Part shown: piece by piece, positions 408 through 42,219 of the stretch
Layout: each line of letters opens with the position of its first letter
How positions within the stretch are numbered: the first letter of the stretch is position 1
NCBI RefSeq assembly: GCF_019038595.1
Contig: NZ_JAHOPF010000004.1
Coordinates: 315,747-379,746, forward strand
Origin: Kaistella soli
GTDB lineage: Bacteria; Bacteroidota; Bacteroidia; Flavobacteriales; Weeksellaceae
Reading direction: 5' to 3'
DNA: 64,000 bases
Made by a program: the position numbers and the translations under genes
Notes under the pieces: model-generated
What the model saw: only the letters and a program-made list of their open reading frames with translations
What the model was told of the DNA's origin: nothing
The model's database searches: none

Positions 408-1062
408 GAAAGTACTTATCGCAGAAGACCATGAAAGCGCAGGAATATCCGTCTTAAAAACTTTGGAGGAGCTAAAAATTACCGACACGCACTTTGTATA
501 TTACTGCGATGATCCACTGCAAAGGGCAAAAAAAAGTGCTGCTGACGGTGAACCTTTCGATCTCCTGATTACAGATCTGTCTTTCGATGAAGATCACCGC
601 GAACAGAGGATAAAAAACGGAGCCCAACTGATATCAGAAGTAAGACAGGTTTTACCTTCCATCAAATCCATTGTGTTCTCGATTGAGAAAAAGCCGACTA
701 AAATAGAGCTTCTTTTTAAGCAATATCACATCGATGGTTTTGTCCAGAAAGGCAGAGGAGACGCGCAGCAGATGAAAAAAGCCATTCTTACCGTCAGCGA
801 AAATAAAAAATTTATTTCCCCGGAACACAAACTGAGTCTGAGAAAAAACACGATCGAACTTACCGCGACAGAGCTCACCATTCTTCAGCTTCTTTCCAAA
901 GGTACCGTCCAGAAAAGCATCCCTTCCTATCTTCAGGATATGGGCTCGAAACGATACAGCCTCAGTTATGTTGAAAAAAACATCAACAATCTGAAAGATA
1001 CTTTTCAGGCGAATAATAATGCGCAGCTCATTGCTATCTGTAAAGATTTGGGCATTCTCTGA
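400..1062 (+). CDS. DNA-binding response regulator (receiver plus LuxR/NarL-type HTH)
   Basis: This 220-residue protein has an N-terminal receiver domain: acidic pocket in IAEDHE, a likely phospho-acceptor Asp in LLITDLSF, and a conserved Lys in FVQKG. The C-terminal helix-turn-helix begins at LTATELTILQLLSKG, the usual GerE/LuxR opening, but the recognition region is longer than normal (QDMGSKRYSLSYVEKNI). The ATG at 400 is preferred over an in-frame TTG at 370 because the receiver fold starts at MFKKVLIAEDHE. It overlaps the kinase gene, so the two should act as one phosphorelay. Its targets are unknown. An inverted repeat and a terminator follow it. Confidence 0.87.
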   Translation: MFKKVLIAEDHESAGISVLKTLEELKITDTHFVYYCDDPLQRAKKSAADGEPFDLLITDLSFDEDHREQRIKNGAQLISEVRQVLPSIKSIVFSIEKKPTKIELLFKQYHIDGFVQKGRGDAQQMKKAILTVSENKKFISPEHKLSLRKNTIELTATELTILQLLSKGTVQKSIPSYLQDMGSKRYSLSYVEKNINNLKDTFQANNNAQLIAICKDLGIL

Positions 1063-6374: not shown

Positions 6375-6485
6375 CGCCAAACCTCGGAAAGATACAATTC
6401 CTTGCCTTTTAGCCCCGATTGCAGCGGCATCCTTTTACGGAACGGAGTGCAGTAAAAGATATAGCGGAAAGCGGGACCGTAATTC
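6375..6485. repeat. possible dispersed intergenic element with hairpin
   Basis: The gap between bshB1 and the upstream gene is GC-richer than neighbouring spacers. It contains AGCCCCGATTGCAGCGGCAT, then CTTTTAC (6432-6438) paired with GTAAAAG (6452-6458), then ATATAGCGGAAAGCGGGAC. From memory, this layout resembles a dispersed intergenic element of flavobacterial genomes. Only one copy lies in this window, so repetition cannot be shown here. A 75-codon ORF across it looks like chance. Confidence 0.45.
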
Positions 6486-6518: not shown

Positions 6519-7196
6519 TTATTCCCGAAACTGATAAATGGTGGTGAGAAACTCTGCGTAAGACCTTTCCAGTTTCGTAATATCACCGGATTTCAAATTG
6601 ATTCCGGCTGTTCCGTAGGGATTTGAATTGACCGAAAACGCCGAAAACTGAAAATACTGAACAGGCTGGTTTTCCTGCGCGGAAAGCTTGATGGAAGAAC
6701 CCAACAGTTTTTTTGTGGAAACGGTGTAAATTTCACCGGAACTAAGCTCTCTTTTAGTGTAAGTTCTTGGCTCGAAAATAATATTTTCTTTATTGATGGC
6801 GATTGTCTGCTTTCTGAAAGGCGATGCTATGAGGTAAACCGTATTATTTTCCTTCGGGAAATCATCCGGCGCAACGTAATACAGATTCAGTTTATAATGC
6901 ATGGCGTCAAATTTCTGCACGCCTCCGTCCACGGTTTCGAAAGGCTGATAAGAAAACGCATTGGCGCCAACTTCTTTGGCTTTTTTGTAAACCATGCCGA
7001 AGATCTTCACATCGTCATCGGAAAATCCCTGCACTTCAATTTCTGCAAGGTATTCGGAATTTACTGTTTCCGGATTGATTTTATATAAAATCCGGTCGGA
7101 ATTGGCGTGGGTTTTCACCACTTTATTGAGGACGACATTCTGGCCAAAAAAAATCTGACCTACAAACATCATCAATATAGCAACTGATATTCTCAT
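6519..7196 (-). CDS. secreted hypothetical protein
   Basis: This 225-residue protein starts with a signal peptide (RISVAILMMFVGQIFFGQ) and has no domain I recognise. The mature part is a mixed, polar sequence with no further membrane segment. The ATG at 7196 is chosen because it overlaps the rfbD stop as ATGA, a coupling signal; an in-frame ATG 24 nt upstream lies inside rfbD. It is the last gene of a thioesterase-rfbD-secreted protein run. A periplasmic or surface location is inferred. Confidence 0.75.
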   Translation of the reverse strand: MRISVAILMMFVGQIFFGQNVVLNKVVKTHANSDRILYKINPETVNSEYLAEIEVQGFSDDDVKIFGMVYKKAKEVGANAFSYQPFETVDGGVQKFDAMHYKLNLYYVAPDDFPKENNTVYLIASPFRKQTIAINKENIIFEPRTYTKRELSSGEIYTVSTKKLLGSSIKLSAQENQPVQYFQFSAFSVNSNPYGTAGINLKSGDITKLERSYAEFLTTIYQFRE

Positions 7197-40765: not shown

Positions 40766-42049
40766 TTATATTCCAAATTCTTTTTTCACTTCTTCAACTT
40801 TGTCAAGCTTTTCCCAAGTGAAAAACTCAAGATTTTCGACAGTCAGCTCGTTGCTTTTTCCTTTGTTAAAGGTCTTGTTACCAACATAGTAATCTCTGCC
40901 CATATGTCCGTAAGAAGCTGTTTCCTGATAAATCGGATTTCTTAATTTTAAATTCTGTTCGATCGCATACGGTCTGAGATCAAATATTTTCTGAACCTTT
41001 TCGGCAATTTCCCCATCATGGAATTTCACTTTTGAAGTTCCGTAAGTATTGATATACAAACCGCAAGGTTCTGCAACACCGATGGCGTAGGAAACCTGTA
41101 CTAAAACCTCATCTGCAACACCGGCAGCTACAAGGTTTTTAGCGATGTGTCTTACTGCATACGCTGCACTTCTGTCCACTTTCGAAGGATCTTTTCCTGA
41201 AAAAGCACCACCACCGTGAGCACCTTTTCCACCGTAAGTATCCACGATAATTTTTCTTCCCGTTAAACCGGTGTCACCATGAGGACCGCCGATTACAAAT
41301 TTTCCTGTCGGGTTGATATGATATTTGATCTGATCATTGAAAAGCGCCTGAATTTCTAATTTCTGCGCAGCTTTAACTTTCGGTATCAGGATTTCAATGA
41401 TGTCTTTTTTAATTTTTGCAAGCATCGCTTCTTCGCTTCCGAAATCATCATGCTGAGTCGAAACCACGATCGAATCAATTCTGATCGGTTTGTGATCGTC
41501 AGAATATTCAATCGTAACCTGAGATTTTGCATCCGGACGAAGATACTGAATTGCATCATTTTCTCTTCTCAGTACAGAAAGCTCTTTAAGAATCGTGTGT
41601 GCAAGATCCAGTGCGAGCGGCATATAATTTTCGGTTTCGTTGGTCGCATAACCGAACATCATTCCCTGGTCACCTGCGCCCTGCATATTTGCTTTTGTTT
41701 CGAAATCTGCATCATCTTCCGTAGCTCTGTCAACACCCTGATTAATATCTGAAGACTGCTCATGAATCGCAGAAATAACGCCGCATGAATCTCCGTTGAA
41801 CATATACTCGCCTTTGGTGTAACCAATTTCGTTGATTACTTTTCTGGCGATGTCCTGTACATCAAGATAAGCTTTAGATTTTACTTCTCCTGCCAAAACA
41901 ACCTGCCCCGTAGTTACCAGCGTTTCGCATGCAACTTTAGAAGTGGGATCATAAGCCAAAAAATTATCGATAAGCGCATCGGAAATCTGATCGGCAACTT
42001 TATCAGGATGCCCCTCTGAAACTGATTCAGACGTGAATAAATATGACAT
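40766..42049 (-). CDS. metK: S-adenosylmethionine synthetase
   Basis: The 427-residue protein has the N-terminal [18 protein letters not shown], the ATP-loop [12 protein letters not shown], and the P-loop-like [19 protein letters not shown]. MetK makes SAM from methionine and ATP. It is slightly longer than E. coli MetK, with inserts typical of Bacteroidota. A consensus promoter and a SAM-II-like riboswitch lie just upstream, so its product probably represses it. Confidence 0.96.
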
Positions 42050-42118
42050 ATTTCTTTTGTTTTTTTAATTAAAAAATTAAGAAAAAAGGAATTGATTACA
42101 AAAGAAACTAAAATAGAA

Positions 42119-42175
42119 ATTCTGTTTTAGCATTTTTTATGGAGGTTGCAATCAGTTCAAATTTTTCCTCATGAA
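42119..42175 (-). ncRNA. SAM-II-type riboswitch upstream of metK
   Basis: On the minus strand ATGAGG (42172-42167) can pair with CCTCCAT (42145-42139) as P1 with one bulge. The loop ends in CTGATTGCA, and after an A-rich linker comes ATGCTAAAACAG (42133-42122), whose TGC and CAG can pair with loop GCA and CTG as the pseudoknot. The TTGCA-P1'-linker-TGCTAAAA layout matches the SAM-II aptamer, including the long-loop form reported in Bacteroidota. Its place before a SAM-forming enzyme fits feedback control. The exact Rfam class needs a covariance search. Confidence 0.72.
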
Positions 42176-42188
42176 ATTATTTCGTCTG

Positions 42189-42219
42189 CAAATTTAAAGA
42201 GTATTTGTTGAACCACAAA
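42189..42219 (-). promoter_or_regulatory. consensus promoter of metK
   Basis: On the minus strand TTTG (42219-42216), 19 nt spacer, then TAAATTTG (42196-42189): an exact Bacteroidota promoter. The riboswitch P1 begins 16 nt further on, so the aptamer is at the 5' end of the transcript. Confidence 0.75.

Follow-up and report, generated by a model that had tools for sequence, protein, structure and literature searches.

The window (the whole stretch of 64,000 nt of Kaistella soli DNA that was analysed) carries on its minus strand a metK gene, identified by a match to TIGR01034 at 509 bits against a cut-off of 309. Its leader has a simple order on that strand, consisting of a promoter, the aptamer (42176-42117), 67 nt rich in U and A, and then metK. 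The features of the leader and its flanking genes are listed in Table 1. An all-Rfam scan gave three matches above the gathering score in the window, one of them being the aptamer. Another, well away from metK at 6407-6482 on the plus strand, is Flavo-1 RNA (RF01705, 66.6 bits against a cut-off of 42), an RNA motif of Bacteroidota that is not known to have a function.

Table 1. Features of the metK leader and its flanking genes (positions in the window).
Feature	Position	Strand	Basis
LysR-type regulator gene, 5′ neighbour of the metK leader	43184-42240	-	NCBIfam OxyR best, below cut-off
Bacteroidota sigma-A type promoter, TTTG-N19-TAAATTTG	42189..42219	-	Sequence, relatives and analogy with F. 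psychrophilum
SAM-II long-loop aptamer, RF01726	42117..42176	-	63.5 bits, model positions 1-60 of 60
Anti-pseudoknot hairpin (likely), GCTAAAA 42131-42125 / TTTTAGT 42113-42107	42107..42131	-	Minimum free energy fold, A-U/G-C exchange, RNAalifold
Start sequestor, left arm GTTTCTTTTGT	42098..42108	-	Folding and pair counts in relatives
Anti-aptamer strand TTGTAATCAATTCCTTTTTTCTT	42079..42101	-	Duplex energy, cognate tests
Start sequestor, right arm ACAAAAGAAAT, A-rich initiation region	42050..42060	-	Helix of 11 pairs, openness, pair counts
metK, methionine adenosyltransferase (SAM synthetase), 427 aa	40766..42049	-	TIGR01034

The match to the SAM-II long-loop model RF01726 is over its full length and well above the curated gathering score (63.5 bits against 44, E 7e-10), so it is not due to chance, and it lies before a SAM/methionine gene of a member of the Bacteroidota, namely metK. 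P1 is formed by GAGG/CCTC (42170-42167 / 42145-42142), the outermost P1 pair of the model being non-standard here, and the pseudoknot by P2b (42155-42153/42124-42122) and P2a (42149-42147/42132-42130). A TTGCA is found within the aptamer core GATTGCAACC (42153-42144), for which TGCTAAAACAG (42132-42122) is the potential pseudoknot partner. The identification as a SAM-II long-loop aptamer, taken on its own, is almost certain, and the element is typical of an established family.

A first-pass annotation of this DNA had described a minus-strand TTTG-N19-TAAATTTG promoter leading after 16 nt into a SAM-II-like element with P1, TTGCA and a downstream segment able to form the pseudoknot, upstream of metK. 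Every one of these parts was located, with the promoter at 42219-42189, and the spacing is about right (12 nt from the box to the Rfam match, 18 nt from the box to P1). The interpretation is supported overall, and the covariance-model search that it proposed does return a match, to RF01726. The models that it named fit less well. For RF00521 no match was returned from this genome, and none over the cut-off from the window, and it was rejected for that reason, although 14 control genomes are equally matchless and its absence is therefore weak evidence. RF01826 (SAM-V) is not among the three matches above the gathering score in the window. The coupling between aptamer and gene, discussed below, had been missed.

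The promoter boxes are TTTG at 42219-42216 and TAAATTTG at 42196-42189, with a spacer of 19 nt. A TAnnTTTG (-7) box precedes the aptamer in 36 of 36 leaders from the window's genus and in 169 of 171 leaders overall, where mononucleotide shuffles would give 1.7 and 8.9, and the complete two-box promoter is present in 32 of the 36 and 95 of the 171. The TAnnTTTG box of F. psychrophilum is reported to sit at -12 to -5 (PMC9723704), and on this basis the metK transcription start is predicted to be near 42184.

This genome has one copy of RF01726. The model matches all 36 genomes searched in the window's genus, 234 of 246 searched in its family (29 of 33 genera), and 64 of 394 sampled genomes of the phylum, 58 of them above the cut-off. 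As judged by motif, a metK start lies downstream at 172 of the first 175 match loci fetched; the three without one are L114, which is at a contig end, L115, which has ffh, and L169, which has a different gene. Being so widespread and so regularly followed by metK, the element counts as a conserved riboswitch of metK in Bacteroidota and not as an oddity. Its position strongly implies control of metK, and the feedback of SAM on its own synthetase is what we infer from the sequence.

There is apparent loss of the riboswitch within the family. RF01726 is absent from nine of nine genomes of genus g17 (for example G051), and G042 and G050 have no match either. The metK gene was found in all six of these genomes in which it was searched for (G042, G050, G051, G075, G103 and G126), and three of the four g17 leaders read have a TAAATTTG box near the start. 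No other known SAM riboswitch was detected before metK up to E 0.5 in 10 genomes lacking RF01726, nor before metK of G399; metK of G040 was not located. A SAM-I match at L196 was rejected as a metK riboswitch because it is on the opposite strand to metK. Second RF01726 matches in seven genomes (L115 and L182-L187, 30.9-31.8 bits) were rejected as chance matches below threshold; all seven fall inside closely similar reading frames, and that of L182 is ffh by match. At L169, from another class of the phylum, a SAM-I/IV match (580-678, minus strand, 58.8 bits) is followed by a SAM-II-like match below the cut-off (475-530, minus strand, 31.9 bits) and then by a terminator-like hairpin of -17.4 kcal/mol, the tandem preceding an O-acetylhomoserine sulfhydrylase-like gene. 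Two examples of this order, SAM-I/IV then SAM-II, are given in PMC9481103.

Leaders from relatives were compared in two sets. The first comprises 171 leaders, which are the 175 loci minus the three without a metK start and minus L132, which contains N's; L133, L134 and L174, with variant cores, were added to the 171 by a separate rule, and L176-L187, fetched later, are outside every count. For the second, named set, 44 of 80 metK loci were used, the 36 exclusions being 28 in which the core pattern was missing (by pattern only) and eight in which the start pattern was missing. Several leaders per genus are possible in the named set, as is overlap of species with the first set (L200 and L111 are alike). 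The L111 leader (genus g23 of the window's family) resembles a Planobacterium leader, and leaders of genus g34, in a family designated f2, resemble the named Flavobacterium leaders.

The first-pass annotation had looked to conservation of P1 and the pseudoknot among relatives, and both are indeed preserved in the 171 leaders. Each P1 pair is standard in 165-167 of them, with A-U changed to U-A in nine, the P1 5′ strand having been positioned by best pairing and hence biased towards pairs. The pseudoknot, CTG...GCA with TGC...CAG, has standard pairs in 171, 171 and 164 leaders for P2a, and in 151, 145 and 161 for P2b. The non-standard P2b pairs (10 to 26 of 171 leaders per pair), which include a CAG replaced by CCG in some species within the window's genus, are what might be cited for an element that has lost SAM control, or that senses another ligand, and is conserved for a different reason. 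Such an element is very improbable in view of the full-length match well above the cut-off and the metK start downstream at nearly every locus.

Two kinds of variation were seen in the aptamers. Insertions of up to about 60 nt occur between the P1 3′ strand and the A-rich stretch preceding GCTAAA, several of them hairpin-like by eye. Carriers in g34 are for example L137, L138, L140-L147, L149, L150 and L152-L155, and further carriers are L072, L086, L151, L156, L160 and L162. The insertions are a peripheral extension of the SAM-II aptamer. Separately, the core is GGTTGCAACC in L098, L103, L104, L107, L110, L112 and L113 (genera g19 and g29), and in five of these seven aptamers GCTAATACG replaces GCTAAAACAG. 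Judged by its letters, this is a concerted pseudoknot variant of SAM-II that g19 and g29 share.

Downstream of P1, the window leader is predicted to form further pairings. The first is the anti-pseudoknot hairpin, which consumes the pseudoknot 3′ strand. There are 94 of 171 leaders with GCTAAA and NTTTAG, and in these the A of GCTAAAA is opposite U in 68, and the G of GCTAAAG is opposite C in 24, U in one and G in one, giving 68 A-U, 24 G-C and one G-U pair and one mismatch. The exchange largely tracks two families, and may therefore represent few events. We retain the hairpin as likely because of it.

The anti-aptamer strand TTGTAATCAATTCCTTTTTTCTT is complementary, with gaps, to the aptamer 5′ arm and core (42171-42146), the duplex having a calculated energy of -18.6 kcal/mol (z -3.2). 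The left arm of the start sequestor, GTTTCTTTTGT, shares its final four bases with the anti-aptamer strand, and can form 11 pairs with the right arm ACAAAAGAAAT, which abuts the AUG at 42049. In the predicted fold of the free leader, the aptamer 5′ arm and core pair with UUGUAAUCAAUUCCUUUUUUCUU, enclosing the GCUAAAA/UUUUAGU hairpin. Locking the aptamer leaves GUUUCUUUUGU:ACAAAAGAAAU as the most favourable structure, which reaches to the AUG and has an energy of -9.3 kcal/mol. The anti-aptamer and sequestor structures have bases in common, and the model thus contains two mutually exclusive pairings, one of which would close the start. Pseudoknot energy was excluded from the folding, and the complete 150-nt leader is only slightly more stable than its shuffles (z -1.4, 17 of 200).

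In single leaders the strength of both pairings is modest. Against dinucleotide shuffles, p<0.05 was obtained for the anti-aptamer pairing in 108 of 168 leaders (168 of 169 were scored) and for the sequestor in 39 of 171, of which 26 are in the window's genus. The predicted openness of the window's start, from -18 to +3, falls from 0.62 in the free leader to 0.20 with the aptamer locked, with p 0.10 against 30 shuffles. The mean fall in the 36 leaders of the genus is 0.34, compared to 0.11 with shuffled middles. Over 51 genera it is 0.095 against 0.033 (Wilcoxon p 0.0024), exceeding the shuffles in 31 of the 51; within family f2 the fall has p 0.30.

An alignment was made of 49 close leaders, 36 from the genus and 13 from other genera of the family. 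For the aptamer and sequestor together, the share of paired cells (88.9%), the count of cells with two-sided change (12) and the covariation score each exceed all 500 shuffles; 13 of 500 shuffles reach as many pairs with two-sided change, and 66 of 500 as many pair types. Versions slid along the alignment are 40-54% paired. The anti-aptamer pairing together with the anti-pseudoknot hairpin is 86.5% paired, which 17 of 500 shuffles reach, compared to 50-59% for slid versions, and the corresponding counts out of 500 are 10 for cells and 63 for pairs with two-sided change, 391 for pair types and 99 for the covariation score. RNAalifold, run on the same 49 leaders aligned with MAFFT, returned P1 and the anti-pseudoknot hairpin only, with no two-sided change. 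Little covariation is seen on the aptamer side because it is nearly invariant among close relatives.

The argument is therefore carried by a cross-genus test. Each of 51 genera was represented by the leader with the lowest locus number, a choice that leans towards matches with high scores, and duplex energies were calculated for every combination of arm and downstream region. Row and column means were subtracted, which removes the effects of composition, and true partners were compared with 20000 permutations. The mean residual for the anti-aptamer pairing is -2.70 kcal/mol (Z -7.5, 0 of 20000; negative in 43 of 51 genera) and for the start sequestor -1.12 kcal/mol (Z -4.7, 0 of 20000; negative in 33 of 51), for regions that were picked after reading the first 86 leaders and in tests that are non-independent because the genera are related. 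Control segments were null, with 3202 and 8183 of 20000 on the promoter side and 18125 and 18238 in the metK codons. The anti-pseudoknot hairpin was not significant over the 51 genera (Z -1.6, 1355 of 20000), and was rejected as a separately proven helix. Swapping in the last member of each genus gave Z -7.6 for the anti-aptamer pairing and -5.9 for the sequestor (0 of 20000 each). In the 44 named leaders the anti-aptamer pairing has Z -5.9 (0 of 20000; negative in 34) and the sequestor, at 143 of 20000 with a negative residual in 25 of 44, is weaker, the control giving 1846 of 20000.

The two pairings differ in their range. Within the window's family (29 genera) the counts out of 20000 are 0 for the anti-aptamer pairing, 4 for the sequestor and 12863 for the control, and the sequestor gives 94 when the three genera with the window's arms are removed. 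For the 15 genera of f2 the anti-aptamer pairing gives 145 and the control 18978, and the sequestor is unsupported at 7016. Support for the start helix thus comes from the window's family and is lacking in f2, while the anti-aptamer pairing extends more widely, and the sequestor was rejected as a phylum-wide trait. The sequestor arms vary in their letters and still pair, as in g5 (GTGTGTTTT:AAAACACAC), g9 (TTCCTTTTT:AAAAAGGAA) and g12 (TTTCTTGT:ACAAGAAA). The sequence shows a promoter, an aptamer and two conserved downstream pairings with shared bases, followed by metK.

These results bear on the suggestion that the anti-aptamer pairing is real and merely aids resetting of the aptamer, that the start helix arises incidentally because the leader is rich in U and the start rich in A, and that repression acts via the pseudoknot or mRNA stability. 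The confinement of sequestor support to part of the window's family, with none in f2, would be in keeping with this, and SAM-II riboswitches of S. meliloti are reported to alter mRNA stability also (PMC9373788). We nevertheless regard it as unlikely, given that the sequestor outdoes all 20000 permutations once composition has been removed and the control segments fail to, that its pairing persists as the letters of its arms differ among genera, and that 72 nt lie between the end of the pseudoknot and the AUG in the window.

We consider it probable that in the window's family the SAM-II long-loop riboswitch represses translation of metK at high SAM, by the mechanism set out here as a whole; our confidence is slightly lowered because the sequestor is weaker in the named set and because the regions were picked after partial reading. 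SAM binding, and the direction and level of control, are what we infer. Without SAM, the strand at 42101-42079 would pair with the aptamer 5′ arm and enclose the hairpin that contains the pseudoknot 3′ strand. The last bases of the left sequestor arm would then be occupied, and the A-rich region before the AUG would be largely free (ON). On binding to the nascent aptamer, SAM would fix P1 and the pseudoknot and so free the anti-aptamer strand, whereupon GUUUCUUUUGU would pair with ACAAAAGAAAU beside the AUG and block loading of the 30S subunit (OFF). Translation of metK would fall as SAM rises, and a Shine-Dalgarno sequence would not be involved. In F. johnsoniae, A at -3, -6, -12 and -13 is reported to promote initiation, and structure around the start to impede it (PMC6847099). 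The right arm ACAAAAGAAAU spans -11 to -1, so that A at -3 and -6 would lie in the helix.

The same aptamer might instead control transcription, with SAM deciding whether transcription terminates or reads through ahead of metK, as may be suggested by the many alphaproteobacterial SAM-II RNAs with putative intrinsic terminators (Corbino 2005, PMC1273637; Barrick and Breaker 2007, PMC2258182). A simple terminator scan of the 171 and 44 leaders found none and missed the positive control as well, and a folding-based scan was therefore adopted. Nine of 215 leaders then showed a hairpin of -8 kcal/mol or lower before a T run. Five of the nine (L080, L116, L149, L154 and L158) are the anti-pseudoknot hairpin, which as a terminator would be prevented from forming by SAM, and this would be the wrong sign for feedback on metK. 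The window leader has no terminator-like site, its best hairpin before a T run being -4.8 kcal/mol with 24% G+C, compared to -17.4 kcal/mol for the positive control, L169. On this search for intrinsic terminators, transcriptional control is improbable, and translational repression is the reading that we prefer.

The mechanism is not general as stated, because the sequestor is unsupported in f2, where a second kind of output is therefore predicted. A broader proposal is that Bacteroidota have a translational SAM-II platform of their own, in which an anti-aptamer strand opposes the aptamer in most sampled lineages, and in the window's family overlaps a lid on the A-rich start, with f2 using the second output. 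This could be a general route to riboswitches where, as in this phylum, Shine-Dalgarno sequences are seldom used, and we judge it evenly balanced between holding and failing. If it is true, both arms of the lid would be free to drift and covary, because there is no Shine-Dalgarno sequence to keep.

The aptamer is already known, and the expression platform is apparently new within the literature searched. SAM-II long loops (RF01726) were described from Bacteroidetes and marine taxa by Weinberg et al. 2010 (PMC2864571), with the same aptamer sequence, structure and phylum as here; the passages on the motif in that account give no expression platform or gene for it. Neither an expression platform for RF01726 nor control of metK by SAM-II in Bacteroidota was found among titles and abstract openings, mostly of non-subscription papers, and the search gave no worked-out mechanism for SAM feedback on SAM synthetase in this phylum. 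Alphaproteobacterial SAM-II (RF00521), found before metA and metZ in Agrobacterium and Sinorhizobium, belongs to the same class, with a single P1 and a pseudoknot P2, and the platforms reported there, as for SAM-II in Proteobacteria, are terminators or masking of the Shine-Dalgarno sequence (PMC1273637, PMC2258182, PMC9373788). The window element differs in its putative anti-aptamer strand, in a putative start helix without a Shine-Dalgarno sequence, and in standing before metK. The SAM/SAH riboswitch of Rhodobacterales (RF01727) is likewise a SAM sensor directly 5′ of metK (PMC2864571). It is a different aptamer, and has no match in the window in the all-Rfam scan. SAM/SAH riboswitches act on the Shine-Dalgarno region, and the thiM TPP and btuB AdoCbl riboswitches are translational switches with a sequestor and anti-sequestor that mask the Shine-Dalgarno sequence. 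The logic proposed here is shared with thiM and btuB, in that the ligand would free a strand which then shuts the ribosome-binding region. Unlike in those systems, the region masked in the window is A-rich, and its letters vary among genera.

Translation in Bacteroidota proceeds mostly without Shine-Dalgarno sequences (PMC6847099), and the manner in which a riboswitch shuts off translation there is therefore a testable question. SAM synthetase is a central enzyme, and its leader provides a concrete model that is simple to mutate, in which two helices compete and the arms of both show natural variation among genera. What is added to the known aptamer is a candidate mechanism for coupling it to metK, backed by complementarity across genera, through which SAM may regulate its own synthesis in this family.
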